DNA of 64,000 nucleotides, from the NCBI RefSeq assembly GCF_039729145.1, contig NZ_CP155793.1:3348001-3412000 (forward strand), written 5' to 3'. The notes beneath the pieces are model-generated. The model worked only from the letters and a program-made list of their open reading frames with translations. It made no database searches and was not told the DNA's origin. Position 1 is the first letter of the stretch. Every line of letters starts with the position of its first letter. This document shows positions 42,552 to 63,771 of the stretch, one piece after another. The position numbers and the translations under genes are program-made. This stretch comes from Microbacterium sp. SY138 (GTDB lineage: Bacteria > Actinomycetota > Actinomycetes > Actinomycetales > Microbacteriaceae).

Positions 42552-43133
42552 TCAGCGATCGAGCCGGGGATCCCGCAGGGCTGCCATCGCCTCCACAAGG
42601 CTCTCGTGGATGTACTCGAGCTCTGGCGAGATGAAACTCGACCAGTCGTCTTCGGCGGCATCGTGCCCTTCGGCCTCTCCACCGTCCGTAGATCCGTTCC
42701 ACGTGGCAACGTCCGCTCCGTCGGCATCCCACGTCTGATCCTGCGGAACATGGGCGTAGACCCACCAGAGATTTTCCGAGGGGTCGGCGAAGCGCGAGAA
42801 CGTATCTCCGAAGAAGTCGGTCGGCCGGGTCACGATACGGGCGCCGAGTTCGACGGCTCGTGCGAGCGTTCCCTCGACGTCGTCGACGTACACCTGGAGG
42901 AATCCGGGAGTGAAGGGCCAGTCGGGCTTGCGGTCGGCGACAGTGATGACGGAATCGCCGATGCGCAACTCTGAGTGCAGGATCAGTCCGTCGGTGTCGA
43001 CGGTGCGGGCCTCGGGAACGTCGGTCGCCCCGAAGACCTCGATCACGAAGTCGATGATGCGGGCCGCGTCGTCGGTCATGAGGAAGGGGTTGATGGTGTT
43101 CGATCCTGCCGGGAGGGCGGGAGTGCTGCTCAT
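42552..43133 (-). CDS. VOC (glyoxalase/bleomycin resistance-like) superfamily protein
   Basis: A 193-residue protein with one vicinal-oxygen-chelate domain (residues about 12-125). It has INPFLMTDDAARIIDFVIEV, LQVYVDDVEGTLARAVELGA and FGDTFSRFADPSENLWWVYAH, typical of PhnB-like members. The last 60 residues are acidic and end in a predicted helix. Function unknown. It is convergent with the sugar operon and separated from the ABC transporter genes by a terminator. Confidence 0.82.
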   Translation of the reverse strand: MSSTPALPAGSNTINPFLMTDDAARIIDFVIEVFGATDVPEARTVDTDGLILHSELRIGDSVITVADRKPDWPFTPGFLQVYVDDVEGTLARAVELGARIVTRPTDFFGDTFSRFADPSENLWWVYAHVPQDQTWDADGADVATWNGSTDGGEAEGHDAAEDDWSSFISPELEYIHESLVEAMAALRDPRLDR

Positions 43134-43224
43134 GGTGTGTGTCCTTTCGTCGCGATCACTCTGACAGCCACCCCGGACAGATTCTGTCCTCGATCGTCGA
43201 ACGCCGCCCCATGCCGGCCCCGAA

Positions 43225-43266
43225 CGCGAAGAAGCCCCCCACCCGAAGGCGAGGGGCTTCTTCGCG
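43225..43266. terminator. Hairpin terminator of the sugar ABC operon
   Basis: The perfect 14-bp arms CGCGAAGAAGCCCC (43225-43238) and GGGGCTTCTTCGCG (43253-43266) lie 12 bp past the substrate-binding protein stop. Confidence 0.88.
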
Positions 43267-43277
43267 TCAGCGGGGTG

Positions 43278-44279
43278 TCACTCGTAGAGCACAGCGGCGA
43301 TCTTCGGGTCGTCGATGTTGCTCTTGTCGTACCAGTACGAACCGGTGTCGTAGAACTTCTCGACGTCCTTGCCGTTGGCGGCGTCGTAGGCCGCCTGCAC
43401 GACCTGGGCGCCGATGCCGATCGGGTCCTGCGTGATGGCACCGGCCATGGTGCCGTCCTTGATGGCGTTGATCTGTGCGGCACCGGAGTCGAAGCCGACG
43501 ATGGTGATCTTGCCCTTCTCGAGGCCCAGCTCGTTCACGGCGTTCACGACGCCGATGGCCGAGCCCTCGTTGGTGCCGTAGATGCCCTTGAGGTCGGGGT
43601 GTGCCGCGATCAGGGTCTTGGCGATGTCAGCCGACTTGAGGTGGTCGCCGTCGCCGTACTGGATGTCGACGATCTCGATGTCGGGGTAGTCCGCCTTGAT
43701 CTTGTCGACGAAGCCGTCGCGACGCTCGACACCGGTCGAGTTGATCTGCGAGTGGCCGACGATCGCGACCTGTCCTTCGCCGCCGATCAGGTCGGCCATG
43801 TGCTCGGCAGCGAGCGCACCGGCGACCTTGCTGTCGGTGGCCGACAGGCTGAGCCCGACGTCACCGTTGCAGGGGGCGTCGAAGTAGACGACGGGGATGT
43901 CCTTCGCCTTGGCCTGCTCGAGCGGAGCGACGCACGCCTCGGGGTCGAGGGCGGCGTAGGCGATGGCGTCCGGGTTCTTGTCGATCGCAGCGGTCAGCAT
44001 CTCGAGCTGGCCGGCGATCTCGGTCTCGGCTGCGGGGCCCTCGAACGTGATCTTCACGCCGAGCTCCTTCGCCTTGTCCTCTGCACCCTTCTTCACGGCC
44101 TGCCAGAACTGGTGCTGGAAGCCCTTCGAGACCATGGCGATGTACATCTCGCCGTCGTTGCTGCCGCCGCTGCTCGAGCCTTCCTCGATCACGTCGCCGC
44201 CACCGCCGGCACAGCCGGCGAACACCAGTGCGGATGCGGCCACGAGGGCCACGAGTGCGGTCTTCTTCCCGAATTTCAT
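43278..44279 (-). CDS. Sugar ABC transporter substrate-binding lipoprotein (RbsB-like)
   Basis: A 333-residue periplasmic-binding-protein-type lipoprotein. The signal peptide MKFGKKTALVALVAASALVF ends in the lipobox AGC (Cys23), then a Gly/Ser linker and a type-1 sugar-binding fold (MVSKGFQHQFWQAVKKGAED, AIAYAALDPEACVAPLEQAK, IVGFDSGAAQINAIKDG). It captures a sugar outside the membrane. The length and pattern match the ribose/galactose/allose class. Third gene of the transporter operon. The sugar is unknown; fucose-pathway and psicose-epimerase neighbours are candidates. Confidence 0.92.
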   Translation of the reverse strand: MKFGKKTALVALVAASALVFAGCAGGGGDVIEEGSSSGGSNDGEMYIAMVSKGFQHQFWQAVKKGAEDKAKELGVKITFEGPAAETEIAGQLEMLTAAIDKNPDAIAYAALDPEACVAPLEQAKAKDIPVVYFDAPCNGDVGLSLSATDSKVAGALAAEHMADLIGGEGQVAIVGHSQINSTGVERRDGFVDKIKADYPDIEIVDIQYGDGDHLKSADIAKTLIAAHPDLKGIYGTNEGSAIGVVNAVNELGLEKGKITIVGFDSGAAQINAIKDGTMAGAITQDPIGIGAQVVQAAYDAANGKDVEKFYDTGSYWYDKSNIDDPKIAAVLYE

Positions 44280-44434
44280 GAAAACTCCATTGTTTGGGTA
44301 CGGCTCGGTTTGTTCTGTGTGGATGCCGGACGGGCCGGCGCTGTGGACATTCCAGGTGCCTGTGCGGATGTCTCCGCGGAGCCGGCCGGAGCCGGAGGAC
44401 GACGACGGGCACGGGTTTCGCCGCCGCCCAGGTC

Positions 44435-45469
44435 TCAGGTGCGCTGTCGGTTGCGGAGCGAGTCGAGGAACACCGCGAGCAGCACGACCACGCCGACGAC
44501 GATGTTCTGCCACTCGGGCTGGATCGACATGATGCGCAGGCCGTTCACGAGCACGCTCATGATGAGCGCGCCGATCACGGTGCCGAGGATCGATCCGCGT
44601 CCGCCCAGCAGCGAGGTGCCGCCGATGATGACTGCGGCGATCGCCTGCAGTTCGTATCCGGTGCCGATCTGCGGCTGGGCCGAGTCGAGGCGGGAGGCGA
44701 TGACGATGCCCGCGACGCCGGTGAACGCCCCGGCGAACATGTAGATCAGGATCGTCCAGCGACGCGTGTTGACACCCGAGAGGCGCGTGGCCTCTTCGTT
44801 CGATCCGATCGCGAACGTGTAGCGGCCGAGCAGCGTCTTCGACAGCACCAGGTAGGCGATGATCGCGAGCACGGCGGTGACGAGCACGGCGTTCGGGATG
44901 CCGGGGATGATCACGCCGAGGGCGATCTTCTTGAAGTCGGGGGCCGAGGTGGAGAAGTAGATCGGTGCGACCCCCGAGATCACGAGGGCGAGGCCGCCGG
45001 CGATCATCATCATCGCGAGGGTGGCGATGAACGGAGGAAGCCGGAGGAACGTGATGTTCACGCCGTTGACGAGTCCCATCAGCACACCGGTCAGGATGCC
45101 GCCGATGACGCCGACCCACACCGGGAGCCCCATGTTCGTCACGAACACACCCGTCATCACGGCGCAGAGCGCCATCCCGGTGCCGATCGACAGGTCGATG
45201 CCGCCGGTGATGATGACGAAGGTGGTGCCGAGGGCGAGGATGCCGATGACGGCCGTCGACAGCAGCACGGTGGCGATGTTGCTGAAGGTGAAGAAGTTGG
45301 GGCTGGCGATCGAGAAGAAGATGATCAGCACGATGAGCGTGCCGAACGCCAGCGACTGCTGGAACTGACGCTTCAGGAACGCCCCGACGTCCCTCTTGTC
45401 CGTGTTCTCGTTCACGGCGGTCTGGATGATCGTCGTCGTCGACGATCCGGGCTGCTGCGGAGCGCTCAT
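44435..45469 (-). CDS. Sugar ABC transporter permease (RbsC-like)
   Basis: A 344-residue integral membrane protein with about eight to ten helices and the family signature IAAVIIGGTSLLGGRGSILGTVIGA in the second half. It starts MSAPQQPGSSTTTIIQ. Its ATG overlaps the ATPase stop by 1 bp. A 155-bp gap containing only GC-rich sequence separates it from the binding-protein gene. Confidence 0.92.
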   Translation of the reverse strand: MSAPQQPGSSTTTIIQTAVNENTDKRDVGAFLKRQFQQSLAFGTLIVLIIFFSIASPNFFTFSNIATVLLSTAVIGILALGTTFVIITGGIDLSIGTGMALCAVMTGVFVTNMGLPVWVGVIGGILTGVLMGLVNGVNITFLRLPPFIATLAMMMIAGGLALVISGVAPIYFSTSAPDFKKIALGVIIPGIPNAVLVTAVLAIIAYLVLSKTLLGRYTFAIGSNEEATRLSGVNTRRWTILIYMFAGAFTGVAGIVIASRLDSAQPQIGTGYELQAIAAVIIGGTSLLGGRGSILGTVIGALIMSVLVNGLRIMSIQPEWQNIVVGVVVLLAVFLDSLRNRQRT

Positions 45470-46971
45470 CAGTCTTCCTCCCCGTGGGCTGCGAGTTGCA
45501 TGATCTTCTCCTGGCTTGCTTCCTCGTTGCGGAGCGTCCCGGTGATGCGACCGTTGGCGAAGACCGCGATGCGGTTCGCCACACGGAGGATCTCCGGGAG
45601 CTCGGATGAGATGACGATGATGGATTTGCCTGCGTCAGCGAGCTGCTGCATGAGGCGGTAGATCTCCTCCTTCGCGCCGACGTCGATCCCTCTGGTCGGC
45701 TCGTCGAAGATGAGGATGTCGCAGTCGCGCATCAGCCACCGGGCGATGACGACCTTCTGCTGGTTCCCTCCGGAGAGGAGCTTGACGACCTGGTTGACCG
45801 ATGGCGTCTTCACGCGCAGTTGCTGCACGTACTCCTTGGTACGGTTCTTCGCCTTGCTGTCGCCCATCCAGCCGATCGCATTGGCGTAGGAGCCGAGCGA
45901 GGCGAGCACGGTGTTGAACGTCACGTCCTGCTCGAGCATGAGTCCGAGGAGCTTGCGGTCCTCCGAGAGGTATCCGACACCGTGGTGCACGGCATCCGCC
46001 GGCTGGGCGATGCGCACCGCGCGACCGTCGATGGCGATCGTGCCGCTGTCGCGGTGGTCGGCACCGATGACCGCACGGGCGGTCTCGGTGCGACCGGCGC
46101 CCATGAGCCCGGCGAAGCCGAGGATCTCGCCCTTGTGCAACTGGAACGAGACGTCTTTCAAGAGGCTCTTGGTCGACAGACCTTGCACTTCGAGGACCAC
46201 GGGGTCGTTCGCGTGCTCGCGGGCCTGGGGGCGGGTCCCCTCGTCGATCACACGTCCGACCATCATCTCGATGATCGTCGGGATGGTGATCTCGGACTTG
46301 TCGAGTGATCCGATGTATGTGCCGTCACGCAGGACGGTCACGCGGTCGGCCAGACGGCGCAGCTCGTCCATGCGGTGCGAGATGTAGACGATCCCGGTGC
46401 CGCGCGCCTTGAGCTGCTCGATCAGCACGAAGAGCGTCTCGACCTCGGTGTCGGTGAGGGCCGAGGTGGGCTCGTCCATGATGAGGACCTTGGCGTTGAA
46501 GGACAGCGCCTTGGCGATCTCGACCATCTGCTGCTCGGCCACCGTGAGCTCGCCGACGAGCTGACGGGGGTTCAGGTGGATGTCGAGGCGCTGCAGCAGG
46601 TCGGCGGTCTGCGCGTTGAGCTTGCGCTCCGACAGGAACGGCCCCGTGGTGGGCTCTCGCCCCACGTAGATGTTCTGCGCGACGGTCAGATCGGGCATCA
46701 GGTTGAGCTCCTGATGGATGATCGTGATGCCGAGCTCCTGCGCCTGGAGGGGGCTCGTGAGCTCGACCTCCTGACCCTCGAACGTGATCGTGCCCTCGTC
46801 CTTGGTGTAGATCCCGGAGAGGATCTTCATCAGGGTCGACTTTCCCGCGCCGTTCTCGCCCACGAGCACGAGCACCTCGCCGGCGTGCACCTCGAGGTGC
46901 ACGTCTTTCAGCGCCTGCACGCCGGGGAATCCTTTGCTGATCCCCTCGACCCGGAGGATGGGTCCACTCAT
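45469..46971 (-). CDS. Sugar ABC transporter ATP-binding protein (RbsA-like, two ATPase domains)
   Basis: A 500-residue protein with two fused ABC domains. The first has Walker A VGENGAGKSTLMKIL, signature LTVAEQQMVEIA and Walker B VLIMDEPTSALTD. The second has the degenerate FAGLMGAGRTETAR in place of Walker A, signature LLSGGNQQKVVIARWL and Walker B ILIFDEPTRGIDV, as usual for RbsA/XylG proteins. First gene of the transporter operon. The ATG at 46971 (MSGPILRVEG) is the conserved start. Confidence 0.93.
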   Translation of the reverse strand: MSGPILRVEGISKGFPGVQALKDVHLEVHAGEVLVLVGENGAGKSTLMKILSGIYTKDEGTITFEGQEVELTSPLQAQELGITIIHQELNLMPDLTVAQNIYVGREPTTGPFLSERKLNAQTADLLQRLDIHLNPRQLVGELTVAEQQMVEIAKALSFNAKVLIMDEPTSALTDTEVETLFVLIEQLKARGTGIVYISHRMDELRRLADRVTVLRDGTYIGSLDKSEITIPTIIEMMVGRVIDEGTRPQAREHANDPVVLEVQGLSTKSLLKDVSFQLHKGEILGFAGLMGAGRTETARAVIGADHRDSGTIAIDGRAVRIAQPADAVHHGVGYLSEDRKLLGLMLEQDVTFNTVLASLGSYANAIGWMGDSKAKNRTKEYVQQLRVKTPSVNQVVKLLSGGNQQKVVIARWLMRDCDILIFDEPTRGIDVGAKEEIYRLMQQLADAGKSIIVISSELPEILRVANRIAVFANGRITGTLRNEEASQEKIMQLAAHGEED

Positions 46972-47028
46972 GCGCTCACCTGCTTCCTTGAAGGTTCTGC
47001 TTCGACGTCGACGGATCATTCCGTCGCA

Positions 47029-47126
47029 AACATCGGATCAATTCTGCGTCCTACGCTACGGGCAGCGCAAGTTGTATCTAAATGTATCTAATGACGGCCG
47101 GATGGGGAAGACCTGTAATGACATCT
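47029..47126. promoter_or_regulatory. Control region of the sugar ABC operon with two operator types
   Basis: AACATCGGATCAATT (47029-47043) matches the FadR-type motif seen near 52.1 and 54.95 kb. ACCTGTAATGACAT (47111-47124, core TGTAATGACA 47114-47123) matches the reverse of the 37.1 kb operator. A weaker TAATGAC half-site is at 47089. A direct repeat TGTATCTAA lies between, and a minus-strand TTAGAT-17-TAGCGT promoter is plausible. Confidence 0.6.
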
Positions 47127-59097: not shown

Positions 59098-59126
59098 TCG
59101 ACCAGGGCGCCCGGCCGAGTGGCAGG

Positions 59127-59132
59127 TAGTGT
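59127..59132 (+). promoter_or_regulatory. -10 box of a leaderless or nearly leaderless promoter
   Basis: TAGTGT ends 7 bp before the ATG at 59140. A GAGGG follows it but is too close to the start to act well as a ribosome-binding site. Confidence 0.45.
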
Positions 59133-59139
59133 CGAGGGC

Positions 59140-60198
59140 ATGAGCGACTGGACCAGCACCGCGATCGCCCTGCTGGAAGCCGATGCCAACCGCAGCGCCG
59201 ACACGCACCTGCACCTCTTCCCGCTGCCGCCCGAGTGGGGCATCGACCTGTACCTCAAGGACGAGTCCGTGCACCCGACGGGCTCCCTCAAACACCGCCT
59301 CGCGCGTTCGCTGATCCTCTACGGCCTGGTCAACGGACGCATCCGCGAAGACACCACGCTCGTCGAGTCGTCGAGCGGATCGACCGCCGTGTCCGAGGCG
59401 TACTTCGCCCGCATGCTCGGGTTGCCGTTCATCACGGTCGTGCCCCGTTCGACCGTGCAGGAGAAGATCGACCTCATCGAGTTCTACGGCGGCACGTGCC
59501 ACTTCGTCGACCGTGCGGAGGACATGTCGCCCGAGGCCCAACGTCTGGCCTCCGACTGCACCGGCCACTACCTCGACCAGTTCACGTTCGCCGAGCGCGC
59601 GACCGACTGGCGCGGCAACAACAACATCGCCGAGAGCGTGTTCAGCCAGCTCGCTCAGGAGCGGCATCCGATCCCCACCTGGATCGTCACGGGTGCCGGA
59701 ACCGGCGGCACGAGTGCCACGTTCGGCCGGTACGTGAAGTATCGCCGACATGACACGAAGGTCGCGGTCGTCGACCCCGAGGGCTCGGCCTTCTACGACG
59801 GCTGGGCAGGGACCGTGGATCCGCCGGCCGGGCGCCCGAGCCGCATCGAGGGCATCGGCCGCCCCCGGGTCGAGGCCTCGTTCGTGCCGACCGTGATCGA
59901 CGAGATGATCCAGGTGCCGGATGCCGGGTCGATCGCCGCAATCCGCCTGCTGCGCGAGCGCACCCTGCACTGGGCCGGCGGCTCGACCGGCACCAACCTC
60001 TACGGTGCGTTCCAGCTCATCGCCCGGATGCGGGCCGAGGGCGAGACCGGCAGTGTCGTGACCCTGATCTGCGACAGCGGCGTCCGCTACGCCGGCACCT
60101 ACTACTCCGACGAGTGGGTCGCCGCCCAAGGCTGGGACCTCGCCCCGCACCGCGCGCGCCTCGATACGTTCCTGGAGTCCGGGGTCTGGGGGGACTGA
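59140..60198 (+). CDS. PLP-dependent cysteine synthase family protein
   Basis: A 352-residue fold-type-II PLP enzyme. The Schiff-base lysine is K51 in [13 protein letters not shown]. The substrate loop [20 protein letters not shown] replaces the usual SGNTG, and [16 protein letters not shown] is the phosphate-binding glycine loop. The C-terminal half carries an unusual long segment around [20 protein letters not shown]. It acts on cysteine, serine or related amino acids (beta-replacement or elimination); actinobacterial homologues are called cysteine synthase family or L-cysteine desulfhydrase Cds1. It is followed by the left 13-bp repeat. Confidence 0.85.
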
Positions 60199-60228
60199 GG
60201 GCTGCGGGCTACGCTGGCCGCAGAGCCC
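60199..60228. terminator. Possible hairpin at the PLP gene / NTPase gene junction
   Basis: GGGCTGCGG (60199-60207) can pair with CCGCAGAGCCC (60218-60228), with a 2-nt bulge, around TACGCT. It could end transcription from both sides. It spans the left copy of the 13-bp repeat. Confidence 0.4.
60210..60222. repeat. 13-bp direct repeat, left copy
   Basis: TACGCTGGCCGCA is identical to 63759-63771. The two copies bracket the STAND NTPase gene. The right copy contains the -10 box and first base of the start codon of the ACT-domain gene. Confidence 0.9.
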
Positions 60229-63200
60229 TACTGCACGGGTCTGCTCACCGTCACAATCACTGGGGAATCCTCATCAGACTCCGGTGCGACGAGGACGAAG
60301 CGAACTGTCTCGGCATGCTGAGGTGAGTGGAGTATTTGCTCAAGTCGCCGGGTTGCGGGAGCCGGCGATTTTTTGACGACCGCCTCGTCGATGCCAAGCC
60401 ACCCCGATTCCAAGCGCGGAAAGACTACGAGCACGGCAGGCTCGCAGTCGACGCGAAGAAGAACAGCATCGTCCTCGAGCAGCCACGATCCTTCCAGCCT
60501 TTTCGAGGCTCCCCGGAACTGTTGCGCCTGTTCTTTGCTGATGAACACGCGCAACGCACGAAGTTGGAAAGGCAGCCGCACGAGCGCCCACCCTTGCCCC
60601 GGAACGACGCGAGCATTCCGATGCCTACGGCGCAGGGCCACTAACCTGCCGCAAGCCTCGATGAGTGTCCATAGTGGGCGGTCGGATCGCACACCACGGC
60701 CGCCGGAAACACGATTCCCACTCAGTCCTTCGAGCGCGGCCAACATCTCGTCGTCGATGTCGCCCTCATGAACTGCGGTAGCCAAGCGACAGACGTCCAG
60801 GCGAGACTGGCTCTGCCTCTGCGATAGCTCGATGTCGGCAAAGGCCTGATACAGGCTGCCGACTAGGTCATGGTGAAACGGCACGTCTCCGAGAAACCGA
60901 TGTGTCAGTACCGCCAACCAGGCATTAATCAGGACGTCGGCGACTTCCTCGATCCCGAAGGCGCCGTCAGCAGCGCTCCTCGTTTCTTCCACCGCACGCG
61001 TCGCAGCTTCGAAGCGTCCGAGATAGACGAGGGTTTCCACACGCAGCGCCAACGCAGCACGCCTGAGAAAGTCGGGCGCCGTCGAGTCCGCGATGACTCT
61101 CTCGATACGCACGAGCGCGTCGCCGTCCCGCTCAGCAAGATCGAGAAGCTCGCGCGCGGCCCTGATGTCCTCGAACGCAGGGTGGCCGGCGCGGGAGAGC
61201 TGCCGTTCTAAGGCGCTGTAGGCGACGTCGATCAGTGTCCTGTGCGAAGGATCCTCCCGCGGATTTCGCCTGAGGAGATTGAGCACGGTCTCGAGCTGAT
61301 ACAAGACCGCTGTGCGATCCGACTCGGCGTCATCGACGGGCCACTGATCGAGCATCAGCACGCATTTCGATACGGCGTCGAGAATCTCCGGAGTCGGTCG
61401 TTCCAGCGTCGCCAAGTTAGACGCAATGGCAGCGTGAATCTTCGCTCGCAGTACGGGCGCGTGCTGACCCAGCGTGTTCAACACGTGAAGCTCGAGCTCG
61501 AAGTACTCGAGGCTAATCTCGGGCTGATTCAGCGCGCTCCACAGCACCGCCAGATTTCCCGCGAGGAGCGTGCCATACATCGACGCATAGCCCGATTCCA
61601 GGAGCCATCTCAGCGCAGATGTCGCTGAAGGCGCGACAAGTTCTGCATCCGCCCGAGCCCGCTCGTCGATCGCGCGAGTGACGTGCCCGTATGCAGACTC
61701 GATGACGCTGCGGAGCACCTCAGCGCGTCTGCGCACCGAGTGCCGCGCACGGACCACATGGAGCACGACTTCGTTGACTCGGAAGGTGCTCTGCAGAGAT
61801 CGCGATTGTGCATCCATCCTCCGAGAGGCAAGCGAGAACTCGGCCAAAGCGAAGGCGACCGCGTCCACCACGGCGTCTGGATCGTCCTGAAGCTCCTCGT
61901 CCAGCAGATCGACAGCTGCGGTCACTGCGAGGTTCGCATGGGCGCTTCGCCCTGGGAGATAGGCCATCGTTTCCATGGTCGCGCTCGCCACGCCGTGCCG
62001 CCGGCTTCCCGGACCGGGCGATGACTTCGCTCTCGACTCCAGACCCTCGAGGGCAACCACAACGGCGCGGAGGAGCGTGCTGTGAGTCTTGTATCCCTCC
62101 GGCATCAGCACCTCTTCATCGATGATCTTGCTCATCAAGAGACTCACGTACTGAGGGGCGAACTCGATCCCCCGCCCGGAGGCGCTCAGGTACGCGCAAG
62201 CTAGATCGAGGGTGAGGGGCCAATCATCCAGATCCGCCGAAAGCTGACTCGCCTTCCTCCGCCAATCGGCGCTCGGCGCCGAAACCCCCATTCGCATCTC
62301 TAACAAGGCAATGGAATCGGTACGAGCGAGATGTGGTACCCCATGCGCCCGCCACCCGGACCACGCAACGGCGTTGGTCGACGTCGCGACGATATCCACG
62401 TGTCCGACCAGAGGACGCCACGGCTGAACTTCCTTCGCCGAGGCCGCATTGTCGAACACCAGCAGCCAAGTGTCCGAACTGGCAGCGAAGAGGTCTCGGA
62501 AGGATGCCGCGAGCTCAGCGCCGTCCGTTCTCTCGTCGCCGATCCCCTCGGCCTGCTCTGACTCGCCGAGGATTCGCCGGACCGACTGTCGAATCGTGCT
62601 CAGATCGTGAGCGTCGATCCACAGGATGTGGTCGTATGACGCAGCGCGATCTCTAGCGAAGGAGGCAGCGATAGTCGATTTTCCCGCCCCCGAGAAGCCT
62701 GTCAGAACCGCTCGTCGCGGCTGCCTCGTAGGCATTCCTCGCAGAGCCTCGTCCAGGAAAGCGCGAGCTTCGACACGGGGTATTGCTTCGATGTTGGGGA
62801 TGGGTCCAGCCACAACACCCCAGTCATACGCGCCTCTAGCCTGCGCCACGACATGATCGGCGGGATAGAGCATCCGCTCGATCTGTTCGGCGGGAATCTC
62901 ACAACCTGGGGTGGTCGCAGAACGCTCGAGCAGCCTCATCGCCACGCTGTAGACGAGGATCTCGGACGACTCCCGGCCGGTTCCCCAACCGAAGGACTGG
63001 CGGAGCGCACGAATACGAGCGGCGAGAAACTCGAACGCATCGGGGAGTTGCCAGGCATCGACCACGACTTCGCATCGCGCGATGCGCCCGAGAACCTCGC
63101 TCGTGCTTTCGACGTTGAGAACGGCGCCCGCAGCCTCGAGAGCACCCTGTATCTCTCGCATGACGTCCGTCCCACCCAGAAGCTGCTGACGGGCAGCGTC

Positions 63201-63548
63201 CAGTGCAGCCCCGAGTTGCAGCAATGCTGATGCGACCGGGCGGTTAGTGCGAAAAGTGAATGTGGTGGAGGGCTCTCCTTGGACCATTCGTTCGAACACC
63301 CGAAGCGCTTCGGCGACGGTTACTCGGCGACCTGCAGAGCCAGAGACGCTCGACTTCGCTTGAACGACCCGAACGAACCTGCCCTCCTTGCGAAACGCGT
63401 AGTCGACGATGTCGTCGTCCGCACTCTCGAGGGACAAGGTCCAGTCACGCTCGCCCTGCTCCAAGAGACCGATGACCTCTTCCAGTACGGCAAGGTGCTG
63501 GTACCCAATCCCATACGCCGTCGCAGCCCCACCGCCCCTTCCCACCAT
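60228..63548 (-). CDS. STAND NTPase with N-terminal Cap4/DUF4297-like nuclease domain, candidate antiphage sensor
   Basis: A 1106-residue protein. Residues about 10-200 look like a PD-(D/E)xK nuclease of the DUF4297/Cap4 type: GIGYQHLAVLEEVIGLLEQG, then E41 and the D44-D46 cluster in SLESADDDIVDY and QAK (63-65). An NB-ARC-like ATPase follows: Walker A GFSGAGKST (284-292), Walker B WLLVFDNA (361-368), VDIVATS (384-390) and a GLPL-like WPLTLDLACAYL (443-454). Residues about 540-980 are helical, TPR-like, and the end is beta-rich. The architecture matches Avs-type phage sensors, but is much shorter. GC is clearly lower than the flanks. The 222 bp upstream hold no gene; GAGGA precedes the ATG. 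Confidence 0.85.
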   Translation of the reverse strand: MVGRGGGAATAYGIGYQHLAVLEEVIGLLEQGERDWTLSLESADDDIVDYAFRKEGRFVRVVQAKSSVSGSAGRRVTVAEALRVFERMVQGEPSTTFTFRTNRPVASALLQLGAALDAARQQLLGGTDVMREIQGALEAAGAVLNVESTSEVLGRIARCEVVVDAWQLPDAFEFLAARIRALRQSFGWGTGRESSEILVYSVAMRLLERSATTPGCEIPAEQIERMLYPADHVVAQARGAYDWGVVAGPIPNIEAIPRVEARAFLDEALRGMPTRQPRRAVLTGFSGAGKSTIAASFARDRAASYDHILWIDAHDLSTIRQSVRRILGESEQAEGIGDERTDGAELAASFRDLFAASSDTWLLVFDNAASAKEVQPWRPLVGHVDIVATSTNAVAWSGWRAHGVPHLARTDSIALLEMRMGVSAPSADWRRKASQLSADLDDWPLTLDLACAYLSASGRGIEFAPQYVSLLMSKIIDEEVLMPEGYKTHSTLLRAVVVALEGLESRAKSSPGPGSRRHGVASATMETMAYLPGRSAHANLAVTAAVDLLDEELQDDPDAVVDAVAFALAEFSLASRRMDAQSRSLQSTFRVNEVVLHVVRARHSVRRRAEVLRSVIESAYGHVTRAIDERARADAELVAPSATSALRWLLESGYASMYGTLLAGNLAVLWSALNQPEISLEYFELELHVLNTLGQHAPVLRAKIHAAIASNLATLERPTPEILDAVSKCVLMLDQWPVDDAESDRTAVLYQLETVLNLLRRNPREDPSHRTLIDVAYSALERQLSRAGHPAFEDIRAARELLDLAERDGDALVRIERVIADSTAPDFLRRAALALRVETLVYLGRFEAATRAVEETRSAADGAFGIEEVADVLINAWLAVLTHRFLGDVPFHHDLVGSLYQAFADIELSQRQSQSRLDVCRLATAVHEGDIDDEMLAALEGLSGNRVSGGRGVRSDRPLWTLIEACGRLVALRRRHRNARVVPGQGWALVRLPFQLRALRVFISKEQAQQFRGASKRLEGSWLLEDDAVLLRVDCEPAVLVVFPRLESGWLGIDEAVVKKSPAPATRRLEQILHSPQHAETVRFVLVAPESDEDSPVIVTVSRPVQ

Positions 63549-63758
63549 GGTCTCAGTCCTCTGGAGGGCAGCAAAGGTTGGTCGTGAAGGCGTACGCACC
63601 GAGCCGCGCGGTGCAGCCCGCCGCCGACGGGCACGAGAGTCTCATTGCGCTCTTCCGTACCCTAAGGGTCTGGAGACGCTCCGAATGCACATCGAACATG
63701 CGTCGACAGTATCGAACGGGCAGACAGAAGCAATCGCCAACTCTGCCAATACTCCCCG

Positions 63759-63771
63759 TACGCTGGCCGCA
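63759..63771. repeat. 13-bp direct repeat, right copy, overlapping a leaderless promoter
   Basis: TACGCTGGCCGCA again, here serving as -10 box (TACGCT, 63759-63764) plus the 6-bp gap and the first base of the ATG of the ACT gene. Confidence 0.9.

Follow-up and report, generated by a model that had tools for sequence, protein, structure and literature searches.

What is a single long gene of foreign composition doing between two ordinary genes of Microbacterium sp. SY138, and does it defend the cell? The gene lies at 60228-63548 on the minus strand of the window, by which we mean the whole analysed stretch of 64,000 nucleotides (contig NZ_CP155793.1, positions 3,348,001 to 3,412,000). The first-pass annotation took its product for a Cap4-like nuclease joined to a STAND nucleoside triphosphatase (NTPase), a short relative of Avs3 with a different C-terminal sensor and a candidate antiphage defence protein. 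Here we surveyed the insertion site, the protein and its relatives, and we read the gene as a horizontally acquired single-gene STAND defence receptor, probably antiphage, which would act like Avs3 or bNACHT25; we put the probability of this reading at about 0.73. Our best reading of the family is an undescribed, sparse actinobacterial nuclease-STAND defence family, whose membership in Avs3 or bNACHT25 is not established.

One-gene insertion at an intergenic site

Comparison with empty sites shows that the gene is a horizontally acquired one-gene insertion, a piece of foreign DNA between two ordinary genes. The inserted DNA covers 60223-63758 (3536 bp), and only one gene and no mobility gene were recognised in it. 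It is bordered by an exact 13-bp direct repeat, TACGCTGGCCGCA, whose left copy stands at 60210-60222 and whose right copy stands at 63759-63771; the repeat has no other occurrence in the genome, and the empty-site junctions show a single copy of it. Against genomes G002, G040, G060 and G077 the alignment ends at 60222 and restarts at 63759 with an overlap of 13 bases. The right copy ends in the A with which the right neighbour's ATG begins, and this copy preserves the neighbour's start codon.

The left neighbour (59119-60198) is a PALP enzyme (PF00291, 9e-53), and the right neighbour, which starts at 63771 in the same orientation, carries two ACT stretches by Pfam. A search of 79 genomes of the genus, this one included, found the left gene in 30 (E<=1e-60) and the right gene in 72 (E<=1e-20). 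On our reading of the match positions the two stand side by side on one contig in 24 genomes, again counting this one, and in the other 6 of the 30 the right gene is lacking or elsewhere. The gap between the two matches is 18-172 bp in 21 of the 23 other genomes and 3575 bp here. The guanine plus cytosine (GC) content of the insert is 62.5%, against 70.1% and 69.5% in the 4-kb flanks, and third-position GC is 70% in the gene against 90-92% in three nearby genes. The empty sites and the composition thus bear out the annotated single gene in a low-GC insert. Terminal inverted repeats were looked for at the insert ends without success (best 7/12), which leaves a classical transposon unsupported.

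Two other genomes hold something else at the same site. The gap in G004 (L043) is 517 bp with a small open reading frame (ORF) that by eye is flavin/PPOX-like, and the gap in G071 (L042) is 1402 bp with an ORF that by eye resembles an IS30-type transposase. The intergenic site is perhaps a small hot spot.

Reading frame and layout of the protein

The annotated frame is exact: 60228-63548 on the minus strand, from ATG to stop, 1106 amino acids, with AGAGGA 5' of the ATG as a presumed ribosome-binding site by eye. A longer frame from a GTG at 63599 would give 1123 amino acids, and the ATG is favoured because a shared GG motif lies near the start of most relatives. Shuffling the inserted DNA 200 times gave no ORF longer than 360 amino acids, against the real 1106, and the protein has a single match in the 3.92-Mb one-contig genome. 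The proposed layout was confirmed with corrections, and the protein consists of three parts, namely a Cap4-type DNase-like N-terminus, a STAND NTPase and a TPR-like superhelix with a beta-rich end.

The N-terminal nuclease-like domain

The PD-(D/E)XK-like core occupies residues 1-110 (63219-63548, minus strand), with a GG-x5-G-x2-YQ start, D49, Q63 and K65, and TN at 101-102; it was delimited by profile comparison (hhalign) with Cap4 members, the LmuA matches of relatives, AbpA and invariant columns. Residues 111-252 (62793-63218, minus strand) form the second, helical half of this region plus a linker, as placed by the alignments and the modelled secondary structure.

By sequence comparison this N-terminus resembles a Cap4-type PD-(D/E)XK DNase, with kinship at the level of profiles and an AbpA-like D-Q-K triad. 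D49, Q63 and K65 are invariant in all ten family members. In a nine-row alignment the D46 column holds D, E or N, E41 is acidic in 8 of 9 rows and E23 in 9 of 9. Since D49 is invariant and D46 varies, D49 is the probable metal-binding acid. The annotated E41/D46/QxK residues are all present and the Cap4-like kinship stands, but D46 is not the conserved acid and gives way to D49.

A profile of nine family N-termini aligned by hhalign with eight sequences found with PF14130, six of which exceed the cut-off of that model, at a probability of 95.35% and E 2e-8. The value was 94.8% without the weakest sequence and 95.6% with only the six above the cut-off, against 0.32 and 0.41% for reversed decoys and at most 0.28% for 50 column-shuffled ones. 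The PADLOC model of LmuA, the Lamassu effector, was matched by the N-terminus of 7 of the 10 members (E 0.05 to 5e-5, best over residues 25-242 of the G1138 protein), and one member gave a weak Mrr_cat match (0.09). Pfam, PADLOC and NCBIfam scans of the window's protein alone returned no nuclease family. The best Protein Data Bank (PDB) match over the core was AbpA (E 0.084), and in this alignment D49 is paired with an Asp that precedes the Gln by 13 residues, the spacing of D45 in AbpA. AbpA D45/Q58/K60 correspond to Cap4 D50/E67/K69, and Q58A or K60A abolishes defence (PMC10732053). The full-length AlphaFold2 model predicts an alpha-beta-beta-beta-alpha N-terminus with D49 in strand 2 and Q63 and K65 in strand 3, and its confidence in parts of this region falls below the mean predicted local distance difference test (pLDDT) score of 61.3.

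Some other matches were set aside. PDB entries 2jxp (E 0.014) and 9yab (0.53) fall within the helical half behind the nuclease core and were taken as chance, and a phmmer search of the PDB with the window's protein gave only FtsE P-loop matches. The first 231 residues of PDB 9n00_A, a 1523-residue 'AAA family ATPase', align with positions 7-234 of the nuclease profile at E 8.9, which is a lead and not a match. Cap4-model matches also occur in frames of 1395, 1054 and 1319 amino acids (L025 of G319, L026 of G387 and L048 of G641), all with a P-loop NTPase by eye, and these frames are candidates for further nuclease-NTPase variants.

The NTPase domain and its affinity

The STAND/AP-ATPase-like NTPase spans residues 253-480 (62109-62792, minus strand), as drawn from FxSxx_TPR, AAA_16 and invariant columns. 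The annotated motifs are in place, with the P-loop GFSGAGKST at 284-292 (K290), Walker B LLVFDN (D366) and WPL 443-445 at the GLPL position, along with TST at 389-391; residues invariant in 10/10 members include G287, G289, K290, D366, P444 and L445.

The best named family is NCBIfam FxSxx_TPR (NF040586), matched at 5.8e-31 over residues 266-616 without reaching its cut-off (107.8 against 300 bits); 9 of the 10 members match it, the best at 1e-46. Pfam AAA_16 (4.5e-6, 27.7 bits) and NB-ARC (E 0.019) both remain under their cut-offs. The window's protein does not reach the NACHT cut-off (11.8 bits, E 0.22, against 26.7), and 4 of 10 members have some NACHT match, the best at 5.3e-5. On its invariant motifs and the FxSxx_TPR match the domain is a STAND NTPase of AP-ATPase/NB-ARC-like type, nearest to the FxSxx TPR proteins of actinobacteria. 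When 48 NTPase domains, hand-chosen from search matches, were placed in a tree, those joined to the nuclease, nine in number, came out as a single group (98/91), which fits a fusion inherited as a unit. Names or Pfam annotation give some of the wider FxSxx/AP-ATPase relatives a TIR, DUF4062 or alpha/beta hydrolase domain.

The C-terminal presumed sensor

A helical segment after the NTPase, delimited by alignment, takes up residues 481-630 (61659-62108, minus strand); a winged-helix/MHD region may lie here judging by position, and the N592 column holds Asn in 4 of 9 rows and His in 5 of 9. Then come a TPR-like superhelix at residues 631-960 (60669-61658, minus strand), placed by the AlphaFold2 model and structure comparison, and a beta-rich end at residues 961-1106 (60231-60668, minus strand), placed by alignment and model, which together make the presumed sensor. 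The full-length model (mean pLDDT 61.3, predicted template modelling score 0.38, low confidence over 436-603) predicts helices at 605-975 and then strands, in agreement with the annotated helical-repeat region and beta-rich end. The further claim of a sensor different from that of Avs3 fares less well; the C-terminus, in whose model a beta-rich end follows a TPR-like superhelix, is not plainly unlike a TPR sensor. In profile comparisons between three clades the NTPase is alike (99.86% and 99.57%), against at most 1.25% for residues 481-1106. Such a C-terminal half without detectable similarity between clades is as expected of exchanged sensors.

Relatives and their distribution

A protein search with the window's protein gave two relatives, P0003 (42% identical) and P0004 (30%), and later searches added P0006 from Mycolicibacterium chubuense, G197 of the same genus and G332 of the same family. 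Further relatives are a plasmid copy in Mycolicibacterium arabiense, three from the same order (G1148, G1138 and G1220) and G769, a looser match from the phylum sampling. Eight relatives share the nuclease and the NTPase. Genomes with the architecture numbered 2 of 198 in the genus (where five had a match at E 0.001, three of these to the NTPase alone), 2 of 398 in the family (where matches at 1e-12 numbered four, half of them NTPase-only), 4 of 396 in the order and 2 of 396 in the phylum, where G769 is the other one. These counts include the present genome and are lower bounds, as few candidates were scored per genome. The sporadic occurrence within the genus is not that of a gene kept at a conserved syntenic position. 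G332 (L022, 6563-9760) and G1220 (L033), which belong to two families, carry a near-identical protein among similar neighbours, which suggests recent transfer.

No match came from searching the phage collection at the protein level. Two loci in viral contigs were rejected as matching over the NTPase only, as were three loci in genome contigs that matched over the NTPase and showed no nuclease start in their ORFs by eye.

Gene neighbourhoods of the relatives

Contexts were examined for seven relatives, six of them independent; P0003, P0004 and P0006 were not among them. The relative in G197 stands 216 bp from SIR2 (PADLOC 3.4e-95), followed by HerA (7.6e-222). The M. arabiense plasmid copy is 1.8 kb from PycTM (3.7e-25) and two PycC cyclases (8.4e-73 and 1.2e-82). 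On a 9.8-kb contig of G1138 the relative lies 0.7 kb from an HNH/AAA-type protein (PDC-M68A, 2.1e-16), and two other ORFs of that contig had no match. The G332 copy sits beside an M23 peptidase, ParB, a primase-polymerase and an ArdC-type protein, a plasmid-like setting in which three other neighbours had no Pfam match. For G1148 and G769 one neighbour each was scanned, with no defence match. Some relatives thus have defence neighbours, namely SIR2-HerA and the Pycsar genes, and one more has the HNH/AAA protein nearby.

Elsewhere in the window, a second GC dip (0.64-0.66, positions 43000-47100) holds by eye a sugar ABC transporter beside an epimerase-like gene and is ordinary.

Comparison with known systems

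Avs3 has a C-terminal repeat sensor and is longer than the window's protein, and both proteins join an N-terminal nuclease, putative in the window's protein, to a STAND ATPase. They differ in the NTPase, which in the window's protein is of FxSxx/AP-ATPase type. In Avs3 the STAND domain is reported to make the N-terminal nuclease dimerise once a phage protein is recognised (PMC12198126), and the Avs1-4 nucleases reportedly cleave the genomes of both phage and host (PMC12931631). PADLOC run on the ten members at E<=0.1 gave no Avs-named match, in a library whose content of Avs models is unverified. With this result and an NTPase nearest FxSxx_TPR, the 'short relative of Avs3' of the annotation holds as a likeness, and kinship is not shown.

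Proteins bNACHT25 and bNACHT32 have an N-terminal PD-(D/E)XK DNase, in which D48A abolishes defence, a STAND module and a C-terminal sensor (PMC12169576). The window's protein shares this order of parts, with a putative nuclease of PD-(D/E)XK type, but their NTPase is of the NACHT clade, which it matches at E 0.22 only. The likeness to Cap4, AbpA and LmuA (PF14130-like) lies in the GxxYQ helix and the D...QxK core, again with profile-level kinship; Cap4 works with SAVED, AbpA with a helicase partner and LmuA with an SMC-like partner, whereas the window's protein has a STAND switch. Many Lamassu systems carry a Cap4 domain, and Lamassu acts on plasmids and phages (PMC10586767). The TPR proteins of FxSxx-COOH systems (NF040586) have the same NTPase type, and the window's protein stays below the cut-off of that family.

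The theme of a nuclease with a STAND/AP-ATPase is not new, because restriction endonuclease and other effectors with STAND/AP-ATPase proteins are already predicted (PMC7159879, PMC8195603), and systems that contain PD-(D/E)XK and P-loop domains have been described in E. coli (PMC13092281). A search of the open-licence PMC literature for a Cap4-like nuclease fused to AP-ATPase/NB-ARC returned none among the matches listed.

Weighing the explanations

Several observations weigh against a defence receptor with a DNase effector, and in a number of comparisons the window's protein scores lower than its family. When only the three closest sequences are used, the Cap4 hhalign probability drops to 89% for the set of eight and to 53% for the six above the cut-off; Cap4 sequences taken singly score 0.2-30%, save G319 with 84%. 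The window's protein has no LmuA match at E 0.1 in PADLOC, and none of the ten members, the window's protein included, reaches Pfam Cap4_nuclease PF14130 among the 25 of 30 families listed. A model of the domain alone is poor (pLDDT 40.6) and its structure matches are noise, for which reason we infer the PD-(D/E)XK fold from the alignments. The ORF lists, read by eye, showed no recognisable defence gene next to this one in the window, and the relative in G1148 sits by eye among core-looking genes. Two of the six independent contexts are beside or within 2 kb of known systems and one more has the HNH/AAA neighbour, figures that stand without a background rate for comparison. The weakness of the Pfam result would suit a nuclease domain that is no longer catalytic, in a protein that is a remnant or a non-enzymatic sensor, but all ten members keep D49, Q63, K65 and the P-loop lysine and the frame is uninterrupted, and we regard such decay as very improbable.

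The affinity of the NTPase raises the question whether the protein is a signalling or regulatory AP-ATPase of the FxSxx-COOH, ribosomally synthesised and post-translationally modified peptide (RiPP) or SARP kind, with an N-terminus that regulates something non-defensive. FxSxx_TPR is indeed the best named family, matched by nearly all members, and FxSxx and AfsR/SARP proteins make up most of the homologue list, yet the score is about one third of the cut-off and the nuclease-fused NTPases form their own group in the tree. The conserved D-Q-K triad argues in the same direction, as do the settings of some relatives near defence genes or on mobile DNA and the lack of a precursor-peptide or SPASM-type gene nearby in the ORF lists, which were read by eye only, with no scan; a regulatory role thus seems improbable to us. 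A different target is also conceivable, in that the protein may act mainly on plasmids or conjugative elements, or guard its own element against rivals, rather than on phages. Lamassu, whose LmuA often has a Cap4 domain, targets plasmids too (PMC10586767), and relatives occur on the M. arabiense plasmid and on the plasmid-like element of G332, with its primase, ParB and ArdC-type gene and its near-identical G1220 counterpart. The known systems beside the relatives speak for phages instead. SIR2-HerA is an antiphage system. Pycsar is likewise antiphage (PMC9117128), and we hold a mainly anti-plasmid role to be unlikely.

The defence receptor is accordingly the reading we retain. The nuclease, STAND and helical layout, the insert and some defence neighbours uphold the annotated candidate defence protein, with D46 replaced by D49, the Avs3 relation reduced to a likeness and the sensor not plainly different from a TPR one. 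At rest the NTPase would keep the protein inactive, and the TPR-like and beta-rich C-terminus would respond to an infection product of a phage or other mobile element. By analogy with Avs3, bNACHT25 and AbpA, the ATP-bound NTPase domains would then oligomerise and bring the Cap4-like domains together, and the D49/Q63/K65 site would cut DNA, so that the cell is killed or arrested before phage release and protection may follow. A wider proposal, which we advance tentatively and with more doubt than confidence, is that nuclease-STAND pattern-recognition receptors of this kind make up an actinobacterial family of their own, apart from Avs1-5 and bNACHT. Such a family would combine a conserved Cap4-like DNase and AP-ATPase chassis with clade-specific sensors for different phage proteins and would spread as one-gene cassettes, the 13-bp repeat here being left by an integration that requires no gene of the insert itself.

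Significance of the finding

Through this family the AP-ATPase/FxSxx switch, which takes its name from a peptide system, is connected with a DNase-type effector and with defence neighbourhoods, and D49, K65 and K290 are three residues on which the whole mechanism can be tested. Its members have effector and switch in common and apparently unrelated sensors, a natural series that may show which actinophage products are seen. That a lone gene was inserted so cleanly suggests that receptors of this sort can travel outside defence islands, beyond the reach of searches based on neighbourhoods.

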